51,288 bases of DNA. It comes from Bacteroidota bacterium. Lineage in GTDB: Bacteria; Bacteroidota; Bacteroidia; AKYH767-A; 2013-40CM-41-45. The notes under the pieces were generated by a model that was not told the DNA's origin, did no database searches, and was given only the letters and a program-made list of their open reading frames with translations. The stretch covers positions 1-51,288 of the forward strand of contig JAPLDB010000013.1 in the NCBI GenBank assembly GCA_026391975.1, read 5' to 3'. Position numbers and translations under genes: made by a program. Shown piece by piece: positions 33,821 through 46,212 of this stretch. Position 1 is the first letter of the stretch. Every line of letters begins with the position of its first letter.

Positions 33821-36800
33821 TTATTGCTTCCTGAGGTGGTAAAAAATATTTGATGTGAGTTTTGTGTTATCAATTACTTCCAGCTGCATCTGATGTTTGG
33901 CAGCGATCCGTTCAATTGTTTTTCCTGAAATAAAATGCATCCCTCCATGTGTTGCCTTATTGAATCCAAATGTAGTTGAAAAAAACTCTGTCAACCGTGT
34001 TCCTTTGTGCCTGTTTCCCAGATCAGCGTTTGCATCGCGGATCAAAACAGAACCGCCGGTGTTTAAACTGGCAATGCACTTTTCAATGAGGGAAACCTGC
34101 TTCTCTTCAGGCATGTAATGCAAAACATCACTCAACAGGAAAGTATCTGTAGGTGAAAAATTATAATTCAGCACATCGCTGTGGATGAAACTGACATTGG
34201 CCGGCTTCGTCGGAGAATTAGAGGCCATTGCTATTTTATCTTCATCATAATCAACGCCTGTCACCTGCCTGTGTTTTGAAATAAATCCAAGCATCAGGGA
34301 AACATTTCCATATCCACAGCCAAGGTCAACAATACTGCCGCTCCGGGGGACGCGGTCAAGGAATAAACTGTAGTTATTTTCCAGGCGCAGTTTGACGCGC
34401 ATATACCATTCGATTATAGCGCCTTTGTAAATGTAATTTTTAATAAGCCTGTCTTTGAAATACCGTGGGCTTTCAAGTTCCTCCCTTAATTTTTGGTATT
34501 CAGCCTTGAAATATCTTGAAATCAGTTTGGTGCGTTCATAATAACCCACACCGAAAGATGCATCATCTGCCTTGATACGTGGAAGATACTTAACGGTCAA
34601 TTGTCCGCTTTTCAGCAAGAAGTCATCACCTTTTTGCATTGTTTCACTGCATCCATGGATCAACAAAGGAAGAATGTCCATATTGAATTTTTCAGCAATG
34701 AAGAAAGCGCCTTTGTGAAAACGCTGTAACTCAGAAGTGCGTGAGCGTGTGCCTTCAGGAAAAACAACGATGCTGTAACCCATTTTCACAGCTTCTTCCA
34801 ATGCGGGAATACTTTCCTCAAATCCTTTGCTTACCGGATAAAACCCTGCACGCTTAACAACCAATCCGAAGAAAGGTGAGTTCCAAACCCAATCATTCAC
34901 CAATAGTACATTTTTATTGCTGATCATCACGGTAAGAAGAATATCAAGGAAGGATTGGTGGTTGGCAATTACAACGGCAGGCTTTGAGGAATCCTCGCCA
35001 TGTTCATTAATGATTTTCTTTTTTACGTTGAACATAAGATATATCAATGATCCGCAGAACAGGCTGAGCAGGTTGTGCAGCATTCGTTTCTTTACTGCCT
35101 TCCTCAAAGGAAGAATCGGATAAATAACAATGGCTACAATTGTCAGTATCACACATCCAATAAAAAAATAAGTGAACGCAATCGCCGACTGAAAGATGGA
35201 AAGAAATGTGAGCGGCACTCTTCCGTTTTTCTTTCTGTTTAAAATAAGGAAATCATATAGCATCGGTTGCACATAGAATGAAATAAACACGACGCAAATT
35301 AATCCGATGATGGTAATGAGGGATATCGACCTGAGGGCTGGATGCTGCGCAAAAATCAGCGTACCCACGCCGATGAGAGATGTGAGGGCTGAAAGAAGAA
35401 TAGAAGTCTTGAAGGAAGATACCATTTTCTGTCCGTAAGAATATTCGCGCAGCATTCCTTCCGAATTAAAAATACTGTAGTCATCTCCCAATCCAAAGAT
35501 GAAAGTTGAGATGATGATGTTTACGATATTGAATTTCATTCCAATCAGCGCCATGATACCAAGGATCCATATCCAGCTAATGAGCATTGGAAGAAAACTG
35601 AAAACGGCCGGCTCTATTCTGCCGAAAGAAAGGAGGAGGAAAAAGAATACCAATATGGTAGAAATGTAAAGCACGGAATTGAAATCGCTTTGGAGAAATT
35701 GAACGAGTTGTGTAGAGACAAATAATTTATCAAAGACAAGGGCATTGGAAATTCCGGACAGATCAGTAAAAAGTTGCGTCCTTTTCTCCGCAGCAACCTT
35801 GATCCCGGTGAGTATCGTAACAACATTGTTCTTAACAGAGACAAATTCCGAAAGCATGGAATTCTTAAATACAGGCGAAGCGAGCATGTCGACAGGCTGA
35901 TATTCCCGTTCAAGCATTGAAAAGAAAGGGTCGAATGCAGAACCGGTAAACCCTGATTTAACAGCATACTGATTGATAGCGGCCTTCACTTTATCCTTTC
36001 TTTCTATCGTCCAGTAATTATTCCAGCCGGCAATTCGCGCACGCTGCATTGAATCCGAAATTAAGAAATCAGATACTGATGACCTGCCTGCAATAACCCC
36101 ACGCTCTTTGAGTTCAGACAGCCTCTTGTTTACTTTGATATTTGCATCAGCAGCCTCATCCAGAGATGATCCATAGGAAATACAAAATACAGACTTCAGA
36201 TGCGCATTGTTAATGTCATCGAGTTTTTTTTCAGCTCCGGCAATTTCTTCAGGCATGTAATTCATGCTCATCAGATTGTCTTCGAATTCTACATCGAATG
36301 CAAACCAGGTGAGAATGCATGTTATTGCGATCACACCAAATATTAAAGGCTTCTTTTTCCTGAACCTGAATGAAACAATACGGTCAATGATTTTTTCGAA
36401 ACGTGAAACGGTTTCCAGTTTGCCGATATCAAAGTATGCAAGTGCATGTGGAAGAATAACAAGTGAAAAAAAAGCCGCGCCAACGAGGCTAAATGCTGCG
36501 AACATTCCGAAGTCGTGAAGCAATTCAGATTTAATAAAAAGCAAACCCAGAAAAGCTCCTATGGTGGTAATGCTGCCAATGGTCATGGGAGATGCAAGGT
36601 CACGAATGGTTTGCTTCACATTACGGACGTGCTTGAGATGCACCAGGAAGTGAAGCGAGTAATTGATGGCCAGTCCAAGCACAACAGATCCCGCACCAAC
36701 GGCAATGATGGAAACCTTTGCCTTGATCAGGTACAAAAGTGCAAGTGCAAAACCTCCGCCAAAAGCAACAGGAAAAATGATCAGCAACAACACTCTTTTC

Positions 36801-37678
36801 TTGCGGAAGAAAAAATAAAGCATGAGAATGATCAGCACCAGTGCAATTGAAGAAGAGAGGATCGAGTCTTTCTTCATCTGCTGCGCATTTGCAAGAGAAA
36901 CCACTGCTCCTCCGAAAAAGTCGACCTTGACTTTACCGGATTGTGCTGATTCTTCTGATATTAACTCCTTTAAAGTTGTAATAAAACGCGTATTCATTTT
37001 GGTGTCCCCCGCATCAAAAGCCGGAGCTATAAACATCAACAGCGTTTTCTTATTCCTTGAGAAAATATATCCGTTTTCTATTTCATAATTATTATCGAGC
37101 TGGAGTTGTTTGAGCTTATTGAGAATAACAGGGCCAAAACCAAGGGGATCTTTTTCAATAAACCTTCCCATTACAACACCGGAAGGAGCCAGCAATGACT
37201 TGTAATTTTTTCGCATTGCAGCTTCAATGGCGCTATCCCCGGTAAGCGAATCCAAATGCTTGTAATCAGTTTGGTCTAAATAAAGCGGCAGGTTGCGATA
37301 CAATTCATCATAAAGATCGAGGAAGGAGTTTTCTTCGATATGGTACAGGATATGGTCAACAAAATGCGAGTCGAGTTTTGAATTGACTTCTCCGGCAAAT
37401 GAATCTGCGAATGAAGTCATGGCAGCATTGCCTTCTTCACCGGGCAATGAAGATGAAACCATCACTACCAACTTATCCTTCAGTTTGTTATTTGCAAAAG
37501 CCTCTTTTACTGCGAGTGAATTCTTTTCACCAAGTGGCAGGAACCGGGTGATGTCCTCTTCAAACTGAATCTTTGATGCAAACCATGCAACCAGAAGGCA
37601 CAACACAATAACACCAGTCCAGAAAATTTTCAGGTGCTTATTGAAAAAAGAATAAAGTGCCAGAAAGAGGGTTGCCAA
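33821..37678 (-). CDS. RND (MMPL) exporter - PlsC acyltransferase - SAM methyltransferase fusion
   Basis: A 1285-aa three-part protein. Residues 1-860 are an RND/MMPL exporter with two blocks of helices (about 270-420 and 670-860) and large periplasmic loops; a GXXXD-like GLGDDYS occurs at 729. Residues about 895-1070 are a PlsC-type acyltransferase with NHQSFLD (H907, D912) and FPEGTRS (973-979). Residues about 1105-1285 are a class I methyltransferase with VDLGCGYG at 1117-1124. It likely transfers an acyl group to a lipid or glycan acceptor, methylates and exports it. Aryl-polyene clusters encode similar activities separately. It starts 8 nt after the DUF2062 stop. Confidence 0.9.
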   Translation of the reverse strand: MATLFLALYSFFNKHLKIFWTGVIVLCLLVAWFASKIQFEEDITRFLPLGEKNSLAVKEAFANNKLKDKLVVMVSSSLPGEEGNAAMTSFADSFAGEVNSKLDSHFVDHILYHIEENSFLDLYDELYRNLPLYLDQTDYKHLDSLTGDSAIEAAMRKNYKSLLAPSGVVMGRFIEKDPLGFGPVILNKLKQLQLDNNYEIENGYIFSRNKKTLLMFIAPAFDAGDTKMNTRFITTLKELISEESAQSGKVKVDFFGGAVVSLANAQQMKKDSILSSSIALVLIILMLYFFFRKKRVLLLIIFPVAFGGGFALALLYLIKAKVSIIAVGAGSVVLGLAINYSLHFLVHLKHVRNVKQTIRDLASPMTIGSITTIGAFLGLLFIKSELLHDFGMFAAFSLVGAAFFSLVILPHALAYFDIGKLETVSRFEKIIDRIVSFRFRKKKPLIFGVIAITCILTWFAFDVEFEDNLMSMNYMPEEIAGAEKKLDDINNAHLKSVFCISYGSSLDEAADANIKVNKRLSELKERGVIAGRSSVSDFLISDSMQRARIAGWNNYWTIERKDKVKAAINQYAVKSGFTGSAFDPFFSMLEREYQPVDMLASPVFKNSMLSEFVSVKNNVVTILTGIKVAAEKRTQLFTDLSGISNALVFDKLFVSTQLVQFLQSDFNSVLYISTILVFFFLLLSFGRIEPAVFSFLPMLISWIWILGIMALIGMKFNIVNIIISTFIFGLGDDYSIFNSEGMLREYSYGQKMVSSFKTSILLSALTSLIGVGTLIFAQHPALRSISLITIIGLICVVFISFYVQPMLYDFLILNRKKNGRVPLTFLSIFQSAIAFTYFFIGCVILTIVAIVIYPILPLRKAVKKRMLHNLLSLFCGSLIYLMFNVKKKIINEHGEDSSKPAVVIANHQSFLDILLTVMISNKNVLLVNDWVWNSPFFGLVVKRAGFYPVSKGFEESIPALEEAVKMGYSIVVFPEGTRSRTSELQRFHKGAFFIAEKFNMDILPLLIHGCSETMQKGDDFLLKSGQLTVKYLPRIKADDASFGVGYYERTKLISRYFKAEYQKLREELESPRYFKDRLIKNYIYKGAIIEWYMRVKLRLENNYSLFLDRVPRSGSIVDLGCGYGNVSLMLGFISKHRQVTGVDYDEDKIAMASNSPTKPANVSFIHSDVLNYNFSPTDTFLLSDVLHYMPEEKQVSLIEKCIASLNTGGSVLIRDANADLGNRHKGTRLTEFFSTTFGFNKATHGGMHFISGKTIERIAAKHQMQLEVIDNTKLTSNIFYHLRKQ

Positions 37679-37686
37679 TTTACGTA

Positions 37687-38013
37687 CTAAACGTTTTTCC
37701 TTGTGAACTTAAGGATGGCAAATGTAAGAAGCCATCCTAAAATTCCTACCAACAAAGCAAACACAATGCTGCCAGGAATATATTGCACAAGCATCTTTTT
37801 TACCACATCAAGTGTTATGTCATGAAAAGTAAGTGCCAGAGGCTGGCCCAGCAAGACCGACCCTGTTTTCATGCTGCCATAGAGGATAAATGGAATCATG
37901 GGTGGAATGCTGATGTTGGATGCAATGATGACAATTGCTTTATTAAGCCGGAAAATATGTGCCAGCGCAAAGGCAATGATCATCTGGTACCCCCATGCAG
38001 GAAAGATGCCCAT
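37687..38013 (-). CDS. DUF2062 membrane domain, probably the displaced C-terminal part of the GT2 protein
   Basis: From the ATG at 38013 the frame encodes 108 residues with DUF2062 features: MGIFPAWGYQMIIAFALA, then SNISIPPMIPFILYGS and two more helices. However, the open frame continues upstream of 38013 without a start codon to 38106 (…FRKIFREAFTNPSESVAVKSASVGFGLF), and this region is the normal N-terminal part of the DUF2062 domain. The frame opens exactly at the A10 tract (minus strand) where the GT2 gene runs out of family similarity. GT2-DUF2062 fusion proteins are known. Either slippage or a true frameshift joins them; the free-standing start would lack the first helix. Confidence 0.7.
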   Translation of the reverse strand: MGIFPAWGYQMIIAFALAHIFRLNKAIVIIASNISIPPMIPFILYGSMKTGSVLLGQPLALTFHDITLDVVKKMLVQYIPGSIVFALLVGILGWLLTFAILKFTRKNV

Positions 38014-38048
38014 AAATAATCCGAAACCTACTGAAGCTGATTTTACTG

Positions 38049-38855
38049 CTACAGATTCACTGGGGTTGGTAAACGCCTCCCGAAAGATCTTCCTGAAGTT
38101 TTTTTTTTAATGCGGTTGAAAAACCGTTGCGGAAAGAACCATAAAGCTGTAAGGATGACCAGCCAGGTATGTAAAATACTTACCCTTGTAAAATCGGTGA
38201 ATGGGCGGAAGTGTGTGACTCTTTCTTTGCCTGGAGCATAAAAAACTTTGATCGGAACCGAGACAACTGGGATGCCTGCCCATGAAGCCCTCACAAGCAC
38301 TTCTATTTCGAATTCATATTTTGTGGTAAAGAAATTCATTTTGCTCAATTCTCTTACAGGATACAACCTGTACCCGGATTGTGTGTCAGGCAAATTGATT
38401 CCTGATTCAAAATGAAACCAGAAATTTGAAATTTTGTGTCCGAAGCTGCTCTTTCCCGGTATACCCTCCGCAGTCATGTTGCGGGCACCAACGATCAACG
38501 CATCCGGCTGTGCTTCCAGTTTTTCAAAAAAGGATGGAATATCGTCTGCATAATGCTGTCCGTCAGAATCAATCGTTATCGCTTTGTCATAACCCATTGC
38601 AACTACCTCTTTAAAGCCGGCCCTCAATGCCATGCCTTTACCTTTATTCATGGGAAAGGAAACCAGATGCAGGTGGGAGAACTTCTCAAGGATGCTTTTT
38701 GTCTCGTCTGTTGAGCCGTCATTTACAATGATGATCCTGTTGGTATATGCAAGCACATTATTAATAACAGCCTCCAGTGAACCTGCGTTGTTATATGTCG
38801 GAATGAGAACGCAGCAGTTGTGTTTCTCGAAAAGGTTTTGGGCAAGGCCTGACAT
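38049..38855 (-). CDS. GT2 family glycosyltransferase, C terminus altered by frameshift
   Basis: A 268-aa DPM1-like GT2 enzyme acting at the inner-membrane face. Motifs are CVLIPTYNN, IIIVNDGSTDET, the metal-binding ITIDSDGQHY and the acceptor-side SGYRLYPV. The start is the ATG at 38855; the TTG at 38867 was rejected. A hydrophobic helix at about 233-250 (LHTWLVILTALWFFP) follows. The final 15 or so residues after IKKK are not family-like: the A10 tract at 38099-38108 appears to shift frame here, giving an extra ending and leaving DUF2062 (37687-38106) in another frame. One more A would fuse them into about 389 aa. Confidence 0.85.
   Translation of the reverse strand: MSGLAQNLFEKHNCCVLIPTYNNAGSLEAVINNVLAYTNRIIIVNDGSTDETKSILEKFSHLHLVSFPMNKGKGMALRAGFKEVVAMGYDKAITIDSDGQHYADDIPSFFEKLEAQPDALIVGARNMTAEGIPGKSSFGHKISNFWFHFESGINLPDTQSGYRLYPVRELSKMNFFTTKYEFEIEVLVRASWAGIPVVSVPIKVFYAPGKERVTHFRPFTDFTRVSILHTWLVILTALWFFPQRFFNRIKKKTSGRSFGRRLPTPVNL
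38099..38108 (-). other. A10 homopolymer at GT2/DUF2062 junction
   Basis: Ten consecutive A residues on the minus strand, followed by CTTCAG. With ten As the GT2 frame stops at 38049; with eleven or eight As it continues into DUF2062. Candidate site for phase variation, transcriptional slippage or a sequencing/assembly error. Confidence 0.7.
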
Positions 38856-39146
38856 AATTGGCCGCAAAATACGTTTTAGGGAGGGATTTGGAAAACAGTT
38901 TTCCTGACAGCCAAATTATTTGTTTGCATTTGTGAGCTAACGGGGAGAATTGTCTGTCGGAATGAAGTAATCTTTTCATTTGAAGCATGTTACCAATTTT
39001 TAATCACTTCCGACAATCCCGGCCAATCAGGATTTATACTTTTAATCAATTTGATTTTGTTTTTCCGGTTTCCGGCTTTGATCCGCTTCTCCTCAAAAAA
39101 TGATAGATGGATTGCTTTGGTCGTTCCTCCCTCGCAAATTCAATAC

Positions 39147-39518
39147 TTAATTGGCAATGAAAGCACCTTTGAATTTAAGAAAAACCAATTCCGCTTTTTG
39201 AAAAGTGCCGGAGACAACCATACCGTCCTTATCATCCTTTAATACAGAAAACTCAACGAAGAGCGCTTTCACTTCATCGGGATTCAGAATTGCAAGGAAC
39301 TTTAATTGAGAAGCATCCTTCATTGTGAAGTCCTTATTAAAAATGTGTTTCAGAATTTCTTTCAGCATCTGAACCATGCATACACCGGGCACAACAGGAT
39401 TGCCGGGAAAATGTCCCTGAAATATTTCATGGGCAGGATTTAATTCAACACCAATAGTGAACTTTTGCTCCGCCTTAATGACATCCAGAATTTTGAAGAA
39501 ATCATTCAACAGAATCAT
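39147..39518 (-). CDS. FabZ-like hot-dog 3-hydroxyacyl-ACP dehydratase
   Basis: A 123-aa protein matching FabZ over the key segment GHFPGNPVVPGV, with the catalytic-type His at 36. The usual FabZ glutamate (PGVLxxE) is Gln50 here (PGVCMVQ), so activity may be altered or use another residue. It would dehydrate 3-hydroxyacyl chains on the cluster's ACP. Its start overlaps the lipoprotein gene's end by 17 nt. Length is slightly short for FabZ. Confidence 0.82.
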   Translation of the reverse strand: MILLNDFFKILDVIKAEQKFTIGVELNPAHEIFQGHFPGNPVVPGVCMVQMLKEILKHIFNKDFTMKDASQLKFLAILNPDEVKALFVEFSVLKDDKDGMVVSGTFQKAELVFLKFKGAFIAN

Positions 39519-40200
39519 TGCTTGCTTTTTTTAGTAGTGACATCGTAATCTTCAAATGCAGTGAAGGATGCTCAATTGAAAACACTTCGGGCTGAAAGTC
39601 CTGCATTGAATCAATACTCACAAGCACCTTCTTTGATTTGCCCTTATAAGATTCGATCATGGTCACCGATTTTGCAACAGGATCGTAATGATACAGGTTA
39701 TTCGTTCTGCCGTCAGCGAAATCAAACACCGTGCTTTGGCTGTTTTCAGTAAAAAGTTTTGGAATACTTCTTTTTAAATTTCCTCCCAGCAATATTCTCC
39801 AGTCGCCTTCAAGCAATTTAAGTATGGGTTTTCTGTTGAGGTAAGATATTACATTGCTCACAGTAAACCTGTCTCTTGAAATCTCAGCTTCAAGAAGTGT
39901 ATTGCCAAAGTTAGAAAGCAAAACAATTTTGAATACCGAATCATTCAGTGCATTCAGGTAAGTAAGCGAACTGAATTCTTTGTCTTTGTATTTGATCATT
40001 GTTTTGTAAACGAGGCTTTCATTCTTACCGGGGCGGAACAAAGCCAGCATTCCTTTTGAATAACGACCCTCTCCACTTTTTAAATCAGCGAACATTTTCG
40101 GGGAGCAGGAACTAAGTAGGAAGCAACAACAAAACGAAGCAAAAACGAAACGGAGGTGACGTCGACAAAACAGATTAAAAAAGATTTGATCAACTTTCAT
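39502..40200 (-). CDS. Lipoprotein of the polyene-like cluster
   Basis: A 232-aa protein with a 32-residue N-terminal region ending in a lipobox (LLSSCSPK). The mature part is beta-rich, with SLTYLNALNDSVFKIVLLSNFGN and KLLEGDWRILLGG, a LolA/LolB-like or DUF4292-like lipid-carrier pattern. It sits 32 nt after the LolA-like gene, so it may receive lipid from it at the outer membrane. I assign the carrier role with low certainty. Confidence 0.65.
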   Translation of the reverse strand: MKVDQIFFNLFCRRHLRFVFASFCCCFLLSSCSPKMFADLKSGEGRYSKGMLALFRPGKNESLVYKTMIKYKDKEFSSLTYLNALNDSVFKIVLLSNFGNTLLEAEISRDRFTVSNVISYLNRKPILKLLEGDWRILLGGNLKRSIPKLFTENSQSTVFDFADGRTNNLYHYDPVAKSVTMIESYKGKSKKVLVSIDSMQDFQPEVFSIEHPSLHLKITMSLLKKASNDSVE

Positions 40201-40232
40201 CAGAATCAGCGTTATTTTTATTTAATATCTTA

Positions 40233-40874
40233 TTAATTCAGGATAAAATACTTCTCCGCAATATCACCATTCAATTTTTTATTTTTAAAAAGAATTACAG
40301 TGCTGTTTTGTGAAGGCTCAAGCATATCCACCTTTGTCACTGTAAAGTCGGTTTTATCAAAGTATAAAATGATCTTGTCAATAAATTTTTTCATTGCTGA
40401 ATTCACGGGCGTCATTTCAGCTATGTTGTTTTTTTCAGTCTCAAAGAATCGAAATGAGAATTTTTTGCTCTTAAATATATTCCCGTTAATGCAGGTAATC
40501 AGTATATCATTAAGCTCAAGGAAGAGTTTGTTGGCATTTGCATCATAGCTGGAAACCTTTCCTTCGTCTTTCAGCATGACTTTACCATTATTCAATGAAA
40601 TGATATAGCTGAACGGCTCAGTATATTCCCACCTGAGTTTGTTTTCTTTTTTAAAATACAGCGAACCTTTACTTACTACTTTGTCATTCAGCATTTTTAG
40701 TTTTTTCTCCTGTACAAATTCACCCTGTATTGTTTGTGTTGATCTGGAAAACTGCGCAAGGCTATTTATAAAAGCAGCTGTATCTGTCATTGACTTCATT
40801 ACCTGCTGAGCATTCGTTAGAACAGGAATGATGCAAAGAATTAAAAATGAAAAATATTTATTAAACCGATTCAT
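40233..40874 (-). CDS. LolA-like periplasmic lipid carrier
   Basis: A 213-aa periplasmic protein with signal peptide ending TNAQQ. The central part matches the LolA fold: TQTIQGEFVQEKKLKML, then SKGSLYFKKENKLRWEYTEPFSYIISLNNGKV and IDKIILYFDKTDFTVTKVDM. LolA-like proteins in aryl-polyene loci are thought to move the lipid-linked product to the outer membrane. The start overlaps the preceding deacetylase by 14 nt, so translation is coupled. Confidence 0.88.
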   Translation of the reverse strand: MNRFNKYFSFLILCIIPVLTNAQQVMKSMTDTAAFINSLAQFSRSTQTIQGEFVQEKKLKMLNDKVVSKGSLYFKKENKLRWEYTEPFSYIISLNNGKVMLKDEGKVSSYDANANKLFLELNDILITCINGNIFKSKKFSFRFFETEKNNIAEMTPVNSAMKKFIDKIILYFDKTDFTVTKVDMLEPSQNSTVILFKNKKLNGDIAEKYFILN

Positions 40875-41637
40875 AAGCGTTTATTTGAAACATATCTTCT
40901 ATGCTGACCACTTTCAGATTTCTTTCACGGGCATGATCCAGTACTTTCTGTAAAACAATCTCGATACCGGGGGTTGTATCGTGCAGCAAAATTAGTGAAC
41001 CGTTTTTTATTCCTTTCAGGATCCTTTTCATGAGCCGGTCGTGGTCTTTAATGGCGGTATCGTATGATCTCAGGTTCCAGCCGATCACTTTATAATCCAT
41101 TTCCCTAACCATTTGTGCAATATTCGGCGTGGTTACACCAAACGGAGGCCGGAATAATTTATTTCTTTTCCCGGTACTTCGGAGAATTAGGTCATCGGTT
41201 TTGGAAACATCCTGTTTCAGTTTTTTCACAGAGAAAAAATCAAATAAGTTATGATGAGAAAAAGAATGATTTGAAACAATGTGCCCTTCATCGTTAATAC
41301 TCTTTACAATATTTTCCTTTCCCGCAATATTCTTCCCAATGCAAAAAAATGCAACTGTAGCATTGTTTTTTTTCAACACATCGAGAATTAGTGATGTATT
41401 TTCATGCGGGCCATCGTCAAAGGTAATGGCAATCTGACCTTTGTTTTCATCGCCGCTGCAATAGGCTTTCAAAAAAAAGCCGGATTGAATAAAGTAACTT
41501 CCGAAAATAATTGCCAGGCTAAACAAAAAGAACGCAATGAAATAATACCACCCTGAAACGTGATACGTATAATCATATGCCATCAGGCCAAGAATGATCA
41601 GAATGAATACAATTGATGAATCGCGGTAGTTCAGCAT
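40861..41637 (-). CDS. NodB-type polysaccharide deacetylase
   Basis: A 258-aa protein with two N-terminal hydrophobic helices and a NodB domain. Motifs in order: ITFDDGPH, HSFSHH (metal His), RPPFGV and LILLHD. The active site would face the periplasm. It probably removes an N-acyl or O-acyl group from a glycan or glycolipid intermediate. It overlaps the KS-like gene upstream by 7 nt and the LolA gene downstream by 14 nt. Confidence 0.92.
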   Translation of the reverse strand: MLNYRDSSIVFILIILGLMAYDYTYHVSGWYYFIAFFLFSLAIIFGSYFIQSGFFLKAYCSGDENKGQIAITFDDGPHENTSLILDVLKKNNATVAFFCIGKNIAGKENIVKSINDEGHIVSNHSFSHHNLFDFFSVKKLKQDVSKTDDLILRSTGKRNKLFRPPFGVTTPNIAQMVREMDYKVIGWNLRSYDTAIKDHDRLMKRILKGIKNGSLILLHDTTPGIEIVLQKVLDHARERNLKVVSIEDMFQINAYESV

Positions 41638-42686
41638 CTTTCAAGCAGCAATAAAGAAAACTCCCTGCCTTTATAATGATTGAGAATCAAAACCCTTTCC
41701 GGTGCAAATGTGATTGATTTCTCAGATGACATGTATTGTGGAATGCGTTGTTCCTTTAGGATCATAGTGCCCAGCCAAAACGCAAATGCAGTTGACGTAT
41801 GGTAATCACCACACAGATGCTTGTACATGCCGGTCTTGTTATGACTGAAATGGTTTTTGATGGCAGACTTGTAAATCATGTCTCCGTTTACATCACCATT
41901 GTTTCCAAGCAGAATGAAATCACCGGAGGATATCTTATGTTGATCAACGAATGTGCCTATCTTTTCAGCTATTTCAACTTCGCTCTCAGGGTTTGAAAAT
42001 GTTTCAACAGCAATAAACTTCGCTAAATTGTTTTTATCGTTGATGCTATTCAAGTTAAAAAATACAGAGCCTTCACCTGCTATTGTTCCTGAAGTTTGCT
42101 TTTCATACAAAGCACTGCTTCCTGATTCTTTACTTATTCCTCCCAGGCGCTCCAGTATTCTGAAACTTGCATTCGAGATTTCATCCGTTGCCCCTACAAG
42201 CACATTTGACTGCGGTTGGTCATTCAAAAATATCATTGCATCCATCAATGAATTCTCAAATGACAACCCCCGATGCGTGTGCGTGAAGTTGTAATTGTTG
42301 CATTGCAGCAACAAAGCAATCTGTGCTGCAACAGTATTGTGTGTGGAAAAAATAAATGATGTGGGGGACAACGTTTGTTCATTGTTGTCAAGCATTGAAG
42401 CCAGAAATTTTTCCGAGTCTTCCATGCAGCCCAAACCGGTTCCGCAGATAATTGCATCGGGAATATTCACACCTGAATCTTTGACACAACTTAAGGCAGC
42501 ACAAACCCCCATTTTGATGAGTCGGCTCATTCTTCTCGCGGAAGGAATATTCAAGTGTGTTTTATAATCGGGTTCGATTGATAAAAGTTTATTTTCGGAA
42601 AATGTTTTGATATCGGAAGGCAGCGCAACTGCTCCAAAGGTTGGCTGCGGTGAAATACAAGAAGCTGATCTGATGTAAATTTCCAT
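41631..42686 (-). CDS. Beta-ketoacyl synthase-like protein without active-site cysteine
   Basis: A 351-aa thiolase-fold protein from the ATG at 42686. The N-terminal half has the ketosynthase pattern MSRLIKMGVCAAL, IICGTGLGCMED and FIFSTHNTVAAQIAL. Where the nucleophilic Cys should be (residues 135-147) the sequence is THTHRGLSFENSL, with no cysteine. Catalytic His residues are also not in their usual GTGT and GHT settings. It is likely a chain-length-factor-like partner of the 42863 or 45052 ketosynthase. The start at 42755 adds 23 residues that lie in a repeat and was rejected. Confidence 0.8.
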   Translation of the reverse strand: MEIYIRSASCISPQPTFGAVALPSDIKTFSENKLLSIEPDYKTHLNIPSARRMSRLIKMGVCAALSCVKDSGVNIPDAIICGTGLGCMEDSEKFLASMLDNNEQTLSPTSFIFSTHNTVAAQIALLLQCNNYNFTHTHRGLSFENSLMDAMIFLNDQPQSNVLVGATDEISNASFRILERLGGISKESGSSALYEKQTSGTIAGEGSVFFNLNSINDKNNLAKFIAVETFSNPESEVEIAEKIGTFVDQHKISSGDFILLGNNGDVNGDMIYKSAIKNHFSHNKTGMYKHLCGDYHTSTAFAFWLGTMILKEQRIPQYMSSEKSITFAPERVLILNHYKGREFSLLLLERC

Positions 42687-42706
42687 ATCAAATTTCTTTG
42701 CCACCA

Positions 42707-42751
42707 TCCCGATAGCCCCGCCTGAATGACGCAGTCGGGCAGGTATCGGGA
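42707..42751. repeat. TCCCGATA/TATCGGGA inverted repeat
   Basis: TCCCGATA (42707-42714) and TATCGGGA (42744-42751) form an 8-bp stem with a GC-rich 29-nt loop, in the gap between two ketosynthase genes. The same TCCCGA stem occurs at 46261-46288 and 23162 in this window. Confidence 0.75.
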
Positions 42752-42862
42752 ACACGATTTGACACTAATTGAAAAAAATATATATTTTGATTCATGCATT
42801 TCAAGCAAAACTTGTCTTGCATTAATTTGTGACAATTGGTGAAATTCGTGGCTACTTTCATG

Positions 42863-44068
42863 TCAGGCTTTTGAAAAAAGTAATGATGAATTATTCCCTC
42901 CAAATCCAAATGAATTAGAGATCACGTTTTTCAACTGAACCTGCCGCTTCAATTCTGTTACCGGACTGAAATGAAATTCTTTCATCATTGTTTCGTATCG
43001 GAGATTGGGAAAGATCAATCCATGTTTCAAAGCAAGGAGAGAGAATACGGCCTCAATTCCTCCCGCGGCTGCAAGCGTATGTCCTGTATATCCTTTTGTA
43101 GAACTGAATGGTGGAATGTGCTCACCAAAAATTGTATTGAATGCAGTTTCTTCAGTAAGGTCGTTGTTTGGCGTACCTGTTCCATGTGCATTGATGTAAT
43201 CAATCTGATCCGGCGATAGCTTTGCCATTTGCATCGCCTGCGTCATTGCCATGATAGCGCCTTTGGCATCAGGAGATGATGCTGTCTGATGGTATGCATC
43301 GTTGGTATTTGCATAACCGGTCAGTTCTCCGAAGATCTCTTTATTGTCTATTCCTGGATTTTTTTCCGATTCAAGCACGATGAATCCTGCTCCCTCTCCC
43401 ATGTTCAGGCCTCTTCGGTTTTCATCAAACGGCTGGCAGGGTTGTTTGTCGAGGATCATCAGCGAATTAAATCCGTTCAGTGTAAAACGTGACAAGGCAT
43501 CTGTTCCGCCGGCAATGACTCTGTCAAGTTTACCCTGTTTAATAAGCTTTGCACCCAGCATAATGGCATTTGCAGAAGATGAACAAGCGGTGCTTATTGT
43601 ATCGACATAATCTTTAATGCCGAGTTGCAAGGCAATTGCTTCTGTGCTTTCTCCGCAGTCATGGGTAATAACATCACGCAAATGCCCCCGCGTATTGTCT
43701 TTTGAAAATTCTTCATAAAAAACTTCGGTACGATCCATTCCTCCAACACTGGTTGCAGAGATGAATCCTGTACGCAGCTCTTTGATGTTTTCAATTTTAG
43801 CAGATAAAACGGCCTGTCGGGCTGCAATCATTCCAAGCAAGGTTGTGCGCGAAAAATATTTGTCCTGAGGAAGTCCGGACATTGCCCGTAACTCTTCATT
43901 GGTCTTCTTTACTTCTGCGCCGGGATGGGTTTCACTCAGTGCAGTTTTCAGAATCGTAATTTTCCCTACGCCGGTCTTAGATGCAAGAAGTGATTGAAAG
44001 GATTCGTCCACAGTATTACCGATGGCTGAAATTATCCCTAATCCTGTTATGTAAACTTTCCCTTGCAT
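42863..44068 (-). CDS. Beta-ketoacyl-ACP synthase (complete)
   Basis: A 401-aa FabF-like condensing enzyme. All three catalytic residues are present: C162 in TACSSS, H295 in NAHGTGTP and H330 in GYTGHTLAA. Length and C-terminal GFGGNNSSLLF are standard. It condenses acyl units with malonyl-ACP, using the ACP at 44158. The KS-like protein at 41631 is a plausible partner. Confidence 0.94.
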   Translation of the reverse strand: MQGKVYITGLGIISAIGNTVDESFQSLLASKTGVGKITILKTALSETHPGAEVKKTNEELRAMSGLPQDKYFSRTTLLGMIAARQAVLSAKIENIKELRTGFISATSVGGMDRTEVFYEEFSKDNTRGHLRDVITHDCGESTEAIALQLGIKDYVDTISTACSSSANAIMLGAKLIKQGKLDRVIAGGTDALSRFTLNGFNSLMILDKQPCQPFDENRRGLNMGEGAGFIVLESEKNPGIDNKEIFGELTGYANTNDAYHQTASSPDAKGAIMAMTQAMQMAKLSPDQIDYINAHGTGTPNNDLTEETAFNTIFGEHIPPFSSTKGYTGHTLAAAGGIEAVFSLLALKHGLIFPNLRYETMMKEFHFSPVTELKRQVQLKNVISNSFGFGGNNSSLLFSKA

Positions 44069-44119
44069 GATATCGAATATCTAAATCTGCTTTTCAAAAA
44101 AAATGAAATCCGGATATAT

Positions 44120-44154
44120 TTCGAAATTCGACATTTAATATTCGAAATTGAGGA
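44120..44154. repeat. Short heptamer array beside the ACP stop codon
   Basis: Five 7-nt units, TTCGAAA, TTCGACA, TTTAATA, TTCGAAA, TTGAGGA, end 3 nt from the ACP stop (minus strand). It fills part of the 89-nt gap between the ACP and ketosynthase genes. Confidence 0.55.
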
Positions 44155-44157
44155 ACT

Positions 44158-44412
44158 TTATTTTTTCTTCGACTGAATAAATTCAGCCATTGACTTCACC
44201 GAATGAAAAACCGCTTTGCCGTCTTCAGGCTTATCGAGTTTAAGTCCGTAATTTTTTTCAAGCAGTACGATGAGTTCAAGTGCATCAATAGAATCCAACC
44301 CAAGCCCATCGCCGAAAAGTGGCGCATCAGTCTGTATATCTGCAGGGGTTTTGTCTTCAAGGTTGAGCTGGGAAATGATCTCAGTTTTGAGTTTGGCAAT
44401 TATGTCTTCCAT
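44158..44412 (-). CDS. Acyl carrier protein
   Basis: An 84-aa ACP with the phosphopantetheine site at S41 (GLGLDSIDALEL). The surroundings are typical: acidic helix 2 (ELIVLLEKNYG). It is shorter than type II FAS ACPs only in its N terminus and lies between two ketosynthase-family genes, so it is the dedicated carrier of this cluster. Gap to the upstream half-ketosynthase gene is 11 nt. Confidence 0.95.
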   Translation of the reverse strand: MEDIIAKLKTEIISQLNLEDKTPADIQTDAPLFGDGLGLDSIDALELIVLLEKNYGLKLDKPEDGKAVFHSVKSMAEFIQSKKK

Positions 44413-44423
44413 AACGTTATTTC

Positions 44424-45062
44424 TTAATCCTTTTTGAGTGCGTAAATTTCGTTTAAACTTTCTTTCGATAAACGGGTTCCTGAATTTTCTTTTGCTGTCT
44501 TTTCAATCAGGAAAAGTGCTGCATCCCAACCATTTTCATTGATTTCCACCCATCCTGCAATGACACATTTTGCCTTGCCTGAAGTCAACAGGTTGGCGGA
44601 ATAGTCAACAAGCAAATCTGCGTCAAACTTTTCAGCAATGAAAAAAGCATTTTCACCCTGAAATTGATGTCGGATACAGATCTCGCCCATCATGATATTG
44701 GGCAATGTGTAAACAAATACTGCAGGACTCGGGAAATAATTCGACTTGTCTTCAACAGAAGCGTAGTATGTTTTATCCGTATCGAGCGATGAACCGGCAT
44801 TGGAAAACACCAAAGCCACTTCCTCCTTCGGACAGTTTATTGTCCGGTTCAACAATAGTAATTCCGTTGCTGCAAAAGCCAGCTTACAGAGATTATCCAT
44901 CTTATAAAACTTGGAATAGTCGCATTTCAGTTCCTTGTATAGTTCTTTAACGAACGACAAAGCATCTCCATCTTTCTTCTCAAAGAAAACAATACCGTTG
45001 TGAACCGCCCTCTTACTGCGTACAACAACCGATGATGTGATATAAAGATCTTCAGCCTTCAT
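44424..45062 (-). CDS. Half-size ketosynthase-like protein
   Basis: A 212-aa protein that matches only the N-terminal half of the thiolase fold: VALVFSNAGSSLDTDKTYY, then FPSPAVFVYTLPNIMMGEICIRHQFQGENAFF at the active-site turn, then AKCVIAGWVE. No Cys stands at the nucleophile position (around 136-141, GENAFF). It is too short to carry the His residues. Similar small proteins occur in aryl-polyene/flexirubin clusters; it may be a scaffold or starter-recognition subunit. It overlaps the 45052 ketosynthase by 11 nt. Confidence 0.75.
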   Translation of the reverse strand: MKAEDLYITSSVVVRSKRAVHNGIVFFEKKDGDALSFVKELYKELKCDYSKFYKMDNLCKLAFAATELLLLNRTINCPKEEVALVFSNAGSSLDTDKTYYASVEDKSNYFPSPAVFVYTLPNIMMGEICIRHQFQGENAFFIAEKFDADLLVDYSANLLTSGKAKCVIAGWVEINENGWDAALFLIEKTAKENSGTRLSKESLNEIYALKKD

Positions 45063-46212
45063 GTTTTTGCAGGATCATGGCAGCATTGCAACCGCCAAAG
45101 CCCGATGCTACTTTTAAAGATGTACGTATTTCTTTGCTTTTATTTTCTGAGATTACATTCAACGGCTTGGAAACACCATGTGAAGCATAACCCAATGATT
45201 TGATCAGTAAATTATTTTTCATCGACAAAGACGTAAGCACTGTTTCCAGTACACCGGCAGCGCCGAGGGTATGTCCGTAATACCCTTTGAAGCTGTTGAC
45301 CGGAACCGCATCAAGACCGGTCCTTGAAAAAGCTATTGCCTCCATTTCATCATTGTACGGAGTAGCCGTTCCGTGAGCTGAGATGAAATCAATTCCACCT
45401 GCTGATATCTGATGCTGAGTGAACACACGCTCAATGGCTTTCACCAAACCCTCTCCTGTGCGTGAAGGTCCGGAAATATGGTTTGCGTCGTTGCTTGTGG
45501 CCCCACCAACAATTTCAACTGAAGTTTTTTCATCTTTTTTTCTTTCTGATGAAAGTACGATGGTGGCACATGCTTCTCCGAGCGAAATTCCGTTGCGAGA
45601 CTGGTCAAATGGCTTGCAAGGTTCTCCGCTGATGGCGAGGAAAGACTGAAAACCGCTGACGACAAACTCAGTGAGTGCATCCATTCCGCATACCACTGCG
45701 TTCTTAAATTTTCCGCTTTGCACAAGTTCAGAAGCGTAAATGAGGGCAACCACACCTGAGATGCAGGCATTGGAAATGACTACGGGCTTGTTTGGATTCC
45801 GGAAATAATCAGTCACTACCTGTGCAGTTTTCCATAACTGAATGCGGGATGAATCAAACTCATTCTTGAATTTTGAGTTGAGCAACTCGATATTTCCTTT
45901 CGTGGTAGAGAAAACAAATATTGTATCGGTTCCGGTTATATCAATGCCTGAATGTCTTACTGCATCGGCGATTGAGAGCAGCATCATTTTTTCAAGCCGC
46001 GTATATTTTTCAGTAACGCTTAGCTTTTGAAATTCATGATCCAGGATATCGTTACCAATTCTTGCTCCGCTGAATGGAAGCGGAATAAAGTCTTTGTCGA
46101 GAATAGTTTTTACACCTGTCCTATTTGCCGAAACGTTGATGAAGTTCTCGGCAGCGGAAAAACCCAGCGGGCTAACGATATTCTCTCCGATTATGTAGGC
46201 ACTGTTAGTCAA
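45052..46212 (-). CDS. Beta-ketoacyl-ACP synthase, first gene of the cluster operon
   Basis: A 386-aa condensing enzyme. C150 lies in ISNACISG, H280 in SAHGTATP and H314 in KGYYGHTLGAAG, so it is catalytically complete. The NACISG setting, rather than TACSS, marks a divergent clade as in polyene clusters. It is the first gene of the long minus-strand run, 80 nt after a promoter with a hairpin leader. Confidence 0.93.
   Translation of the reverse strand: MTNSAYIIGENIVSPLGFSAAENFINVSANRTGVKTILDKDFIPLPFSGARIGNDILDHEFQKLSVTEKYTRLEKMMLLSIADAVRHSGIDITGTDTIFVFSTTKGNIELLNSKFKNEFDSSRIQLWKTAQVVTDYFRNPNKPVVISNACISGVVALIYASELVQSGKFKNAVVCGMDALTEFVVSGFQSFLAISGEPCKPFDQSRNGISLGEACATIVLSSERKKDEKTSVEIVGGATSNDANHISGPSRTGEGLVKAIERVFTQHQISAGGIDFISAHGTATPYNDEMEAIAFSRTGLDAVPVNSFKGYYGHTLGAAGVLETVLTSLSMKNNLLIKSLGYASHGVSKPLNVISENKSKEIRTSLKVASGFGGCNAAMILQKHEG

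Follow-up and report, generated by a model that had tools for sequence, protein, structure and literature searches.

The window, meaning the whole stretch of 51,288 nucleotides that was analysed (contig JAPLDB010000013.1), belongs to the 3.6 Mb genome of a Bacteroidota bacterium, assembled in 239 contigs (GCA_026391975.1). Its minus strand carries at 33821..46212 a putative aryl-polyene/flexirubin-type cluster, indicated by Pfam and NCBIfam matches, with three ketosynthases, a polysaccharide deacetylase-like protein, a LolA-like carrier, a FabA/ApeI-like dehydratase and a 1285-aa single-chain protein (33821-37678, minus strand) made up of MMPL/RND exporter, acyltransferase and methyltransferase parts. 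The ApeI-like match of the FabA-like dehydratase scores 22.1 bits and is below the cut-off of 28.5; the other expected component types are present.

Within the cluster lies a glycosyltransferase frame, GT2 (38049..38855, minus strand; PF00535, E=1.4e-21, 77.6 bits against a curated Pfam cut-off of 23.3), which starts with ATG at 38855 or alternatively with TTG at 38867. At the domain boundary it crosses a run of ten A's (A10, 38099..38108, minus strand), identified by direct reading and by comparison with 19 other species. The run is read as AAA AAA AAA A in the GT2 frame, the minus strand context being ...CGC ATT AAA AAA AAA ACT TCA... with A10 at 38108-38099. The GT2 frame then adds a tail of 16 unrelated, unconserved residues (TSGRSFGRRLPTPVNL) and ends with TAG at 38051-38049, giving the short product. 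The DUF2062 frame (37687..38106, minus strand; PF09835, E=8e-19, 68.5 bits against a curated Pfam cut-off of 27.4) lies at -1 relative to GT2, encodes a hydrophobic C-terminal domain and can be read only once the frame has changed within the run. It is closed at the 5' edge of the run by TAA (38107..38109, minus strand), formed by the final T of ATT and the first two A's of the run. Its first start codon, an ATG at 38011..38013 (minus strand), is located within the domain, and the whole DUF2062 has no start of its own. A sequence-only reading had described this junction, and every base of its coordinates checked out (run at 38099-38108, GT2 end at 38049, DUF2062 at -1). The TAA at 38109-38107 and the ATG, read directly, agree with its statement that the DUF2062 frame opens at the run and has its first start at 38013, and counting from ATG 38855 yields the joined GT2-DUF2062 product of about 389 aa that it had given.

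The host's 3.6-Mb genome contains about 31 distinct A/T runs of at least ten bases. No other of these runs was seen to split a gene; they are intergenic or within open frames, and two doubtful ones were re-read and both found to be intergenic. A genome-wide habit of A10-split genes was rejected, since the GT2/DUF2062 run is alone among the approximately 31 in being seen to split a gene. This, together with the same state in 19 other species, makes the split more than a matter of chance.

Orthologs were collected by a GTDB contig scan and several whole-genome searches, giving 183 scorable two-domain genes including that of the window. Comparing the junction in relatives, as the sequence-only reading had suggested, separates 163 single-frame GT2-DUF2062 fusions, mostly of 390-416 aa, from 20 identically split genes, window included. 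The fraction 20/183 is not a natural frequency, because sampling was steered toward families in which splits had already been seen. In all 20 split species the same codon is affected, DUF2062 is always at -1 and the run is A10 (17 species) or A11 (3 species). The splits fall on the branch of the window, on twelve species of one Chryseotaleaceae-like clade, on five Capnocytophaga and on two other Bacteroidota (L112, L115). The split members of the clade are Chryseosolibacter histidini (L032), Parachryseolinea silvisoli (L034), Dawidia soli (L043), Fulvivirgaceae JP3-4 (L045) and their eight relatives L169, L173-L175, L181, L182, L185 and L189; the Capnocytophaga genes are L051, L060, L277, L280 and L285. 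Genes close to the Bacteroidota orthologs were also found in a Thermoanaerobaculia bin (L033) and an Azovibrio restrictus bin (L054), the contigs of which are likely misbinned in metagenome bins of other phyla. In Chitinophaga sp. E66 (L102; CP079103.1, near 3700) an indel a little upstream of the site interrupts GT2-DUF2062, by its appearance either a sequencing error or a genuine mutation; as this indel lies elsewhere and comes without an A run, L102 was set aside from the split count.

Could the break in the window be an assembly or sequencing error, as the sequence-only reading had allowed, or the mark of a decaying pseudogene? The window does come from a 239-contig assembly and L102 does look like such a case, but the indel of the latter is not at the run, and codon, offset and A10 or A11 agree among 20 species that were assembled independently, several being cultured isolates. 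Both frames are moreover under purifying selection, with dN/dS of 0.05-0.17 (close pairs) for the DUF2062 frame of the split genes, and in most pairs examined the changes just 3' of the run are for the most part synonymous in the DUF2062 frame. Error or decay in the window is thus extremely improbable, and random decay was rejected because of the selection on the DUF2062 frame.

A tree was built on 173 GT2 domains with the junction excluded, and a second one on 183 rows. The split label changes 6 times on the 173 rows, at least 4 of these changes being forced by well-supported branches, and 9 times on the 183 rows. Together with Pseudochryseolinea (two identical rows), which is fused without the run and is the sole fused member, the twelve split species make up a clade of 14 rows. 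L115 is split and its congeners are fused, reading ATG AAA ACY AAT at the site. From these relationships and the changes on the tree the identical arrangement very probably arose more than once, gains and losses being indistinguishable on the tree. The branch of the window is long and its placement unsure.

Synonymous differences within the clade are near saturation, with a median pS of 0.76 in GT2 and 0.73 in DUF2062. AAA AAA AAA A is nevertheless unbroken in all twelve split members, all of which have A10 or A11 and the -1 offset. The A11 of L174, L175 and L181 arose without a change of frame: the extra A replaces the next base and DUF2062 remains at -1. In four of the five Capnocytophaga split genes (L051, L060, L280, L285) A10 is made up with the last base of the preceding codon and the run ends in G; these genes keep the run length by another route. 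In the 17 split genes examined, 43-91% of the lysine codons are AAA, and finding three AAA codons in every one is therefore unexpected; the probability product is about 10^-10.8, which ignores relatedness and is indicative only. For the NTT codon before the run in the same 17 genes the product is about 10^-7.2, to be read in the same way.

The constancy of the offset bears on phase variation, in which the run would gain or lose A's in the DNA and so switch the fusion on and off in a population. Homopolymer runs are capable of such switching, and the species of Capnocytophaga differ in frame, one of them (L286) with an in-frame A11. On the other side, the clade with the twelve split species contains no member with a frame-restored run, its A11 keeps -1, and all 20 split genes have the same offset with no spread of lengths. 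We regard phase variation as very unlikely, and the suggestion that the cluster is switched on and off at the run finds no counterpart in the clade, where the offset is constant and not toggling. The sequence-only reading had left slippage, phase variation and error side by side; it is slippage that is retained.

Separate translation of DUF2062 was considered and rejected, as a stop stands at or near the run and in most species no start precedes the domain core. Of the 17 split genes examined, 15 have a TAA at the edge of the run that closes the DUF2062 frame, the exceptions having their TAA four (L060) and 53 codons upstream (L051). The first start of the frame follows 18-29 codons in, again in 15 of 17; earlier ones are a TTG at codon 10 in L060 and a TTG at codon 6 in L169. 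Because of this TAA and the missing early start, the whole DUF2062 would most simply be made by a frame change in the run.

What such a change would add to the enzyme can be seen from the AlphaFold model of the fused ortholog L033 (mean pLDDT 86), in which a GT2 fold is followed by a long helix, by a linker of low confidence (residues 251-270) and then by a helical bundle; the run would fall in the interdomain linker. The best fold matches are ArnC, dolichyl-phosphate mannose synthase and GtrB, with a large rmsd over the membrane part, and glucosyl-3-phosphoglycerate synthases. Hydrophobic segments are clear in DUF2062 and borderline only in the GT2 part of the window, so slippage would decide whether GT2 carries a membrane domain. 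GT2 without DUF2062 occurs naturally (L226, L227 and several GT2-only genes of about 256 aa), which makes the short form plausible as an enzyme. The same GT2 is found in proteins of about 500 aa without DUF2062 (L143, L146, L149, L153, L157, L159-L161, L163, L166) and of about 650 aa (L147); these possibly represent the GT2-acyltransferase arrangement of ApeJ. In E. coli the glycosyltransferase/acyltransferase ApeJ has been proposed to join the polyene to its lipid anchor (PMC8253772). By analogy the GT2 of the window, with or without DUF2062, may act in polyene attachment to a lipid anchor: both are GT2-type enzymes from aryl-polyene-type clusters that also encode LolA-like and RND transport proteins (PMC8253772), but ApeJ is fused to its acyltransferase, whereas here GT2 joins DUF2062 and the acyltransferase is part of the exporter protein.

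Slippage, be it transcriptional or ribosomal, is in our judgement highly probably used to make both products, and the same run with the same wrong frame in 20 species makes a built-in slippage site the most likely explanation. Three features of programmed transcriptional slippage genes were found: an A or T run of at least nine bases on the sense strand, a frame change leading into a conserved, selected domain, and a run and offset kept beyond synonymous divergence. Bacterial RNA polymerase slips efficiently on nine A's or T's, and Thermus thermophilus dnaX, Shigella mxiE and Citrobacter rodentium tssM1 exploit this (PMC5009743, PMC1088944, PMC4256274). The reading that we favour, and hold to be probable, is that the A10 run at the boundary of the two domains is a conserved programmed transcriptional slippage site yielding GT2 and GT2-DUF2062 from one gene. 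RNA polymerase copying the run would add (or drop) A's and produce a mixed mRNA population; mRNA with the templated number of A's would give the GT2 enzyme alone, with a stop shortly after the run, and realigned mRNA the GT2-DUF2062 fusion with its hydrophobic C-terminal domain. From such a mixture one gene would supply two glycosyltransferases at a fixed ratio, a short one and a membrane-anchored one, both forms probably being used in attaching or decorating the aryl-polyene/flexirubin-type lipid.

The same two proteins would arise by a programmed -1 ribosomal frameshift on A_AAA_AAA, the mRNA being uniform and the ribosome slipping back one base to make the fusion. The heptamer is in frame in every split gene, the -1 direction fits, and purine-rich GGAG-like bases precede the run by a few positions in some species (for example L173, L181 and L189), but the window and Capnocytophaga lack them. 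No 3' stimulatory hairpin was found in the 60 bases after the run in 17 split genes (mean z +0.1). A ribosomal site would also permit A_AAA_AAG, whereas the third codon is never AAG and the run always has at least 10 bases, a constancy more typical of a transcriptional site. The frameshift of E. coli dnaX is alike in taking a -1 step at A-rich lysine codons and meeting a stop shortly afterwards; it differs in that its A_AAA_AAG is accompanied by a Shine-Dalgarno-like element and a hairpin, and the GT2-DUF2062 site has no such hairpin. The E. coli dnaX frameshift serves the short product. The lack of a hairpin and of third-codon AAG and the length of at least 10 speak for transcription over the ribosome, without deciding, and we consider the ribosomal explanation unlikely. 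In the 60 bases 5' of the run strong hairpins (z about -4.5) occur in L034 and L174, a feature not general among split genes; these could modulate slippage.

The run is also present among fused orthologs, 34 of which, most from the family of Capnocytophaga, carry an in-frame A9-A11. A one-base slip, tested in 31 of the 34, leads to a stop after a median of 2 codons versus 9 in orthologs without the run. KKK stands at the site in 31 orthologs and is written AAA AAA AAA in 25 of them, against 14.9 expected from gene codon use (simulated P ~5e-5, relatedness ignored). Slippage in the in-frame orthologs would yield the short form, as in Thermus dnaX. Capnocytophaga shows both frame states in different species, five with the out-of-frame A10 and L286 with an in-frame A11 at the site.

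These orthologs bear on tolerated ('savior') slippage as well, in which the gene lost its frame by chance within a long A run, slippage still supplies enough of the fusion and the short product has no role. Repeated independent losses, frame flips in Capnocytophaga and the frequency of KKK-coding A9-A11 runs in fused orthologs are in its favour. However, the split and the intact run persist through a clade with saturated synonymous sites and were never repaired with the run present, GT2 without DUF2062 exists as a natural form, and avoidance of slippage does not appear to be favoured, given that the in-frame orthologs keep AAA AAA AAA above codon-use expectation (25/31 vs 14.9) and meet a stop soon after a slip. 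Tolerated slippage is in our view improbable. Some observations do count against programmed slippage: the majority of orthologs are simple fusions that lack a long run, so that two products are not needed in every species; the KKK of the linker easily gives poly-A in A+T-rich genomes; and with the frame flips in Capnocytophaga the run could be only tolerated, the fusion being the one needed product.

For programmed transcriptional slippage the closest likeness is to C. rodentium tssM1 and Yersinia pseudotuberculosis tssM3, chromosomal membrane-protein genes in which poly-A cuts the frame before a domain in another frame (PMC4256274). Short and full-length forms are likewise made from one gene and no ribosomal stimulators are seen; in tssM1, A11 spans three AAA codons, ribosomal stimulators are absent and both products are needed (PMC4256274). 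Those genes belong to a secretion system in a few species, whereas GT2-DUF2062 spans several families of one phylum, and slippage was demonstrated there by mRNA mass analysis and blots, whereas for GT2-DUF2062 it is deduced from sequence. T. thermophilus dnaX has an in-frame A9 and a nearby stop, slippage giving a shorter product (PMC5009743, PMC1088944), like the 34 in-frame orthologs; the window is its mirror image, the genomic frame giving the short product and slippage the long one. Shigella mxiE consists of two overlapping frames joined solely by transcriptional slippage to a longer product (PMC1088944, PMC5009743), but is a plasmid-borne regulator of a different family. In the literature searched, which was covered in part and may hold an earlier mention, no report of slippage with Bacteroidetes or Flavobacterium glycosyltransferases, or on DUF2062, was found, and text search of the GeneTack survey and of a recoding review did not return the family. 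As far as the searched literature shows, the kind of system is known and the GT2-DUF2062 family is new to programmed slippage.

GT2-DUF2062 would represent a conserved, non-mobile chromosomal case of slippage in Bacteroidota with two mirror-image frame states. Conserved recoding in non-mobile chromosomal genes has been described as known in few cases (PMC5009743); the present one is spread over several Bacteroidota families and is easy to assay, and with its two frame states one can ask directly whether it is the frame or the slippage that is under selection. A tentative and rather doubtful extension is a 'frame-indifferent' gene: as slippage would make GT2 and GT2-DUF2062 from either DNA frame, selection in Bacteroidota might keep the slippery run and not the genomic frame. 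If so, orthologs would alternate between two states, one like dnaX, in which the DNA encodes the fusion and slippage yields the short form, and one like mxiE, in which the DNA encodes the short form and slippage yields the fusion, and such flips would tune the ratio of GT2 to GT2-DUF2062. Annotation pipelines may label functional GT2-DUF2062 genes as frameshifted or split in two. For the biology of these bacteria, the arrangement suggests that the amount of a membrane-anchored enzyme in a widespread pigment-type pathway may be governed by slippage of RNA polymerase.
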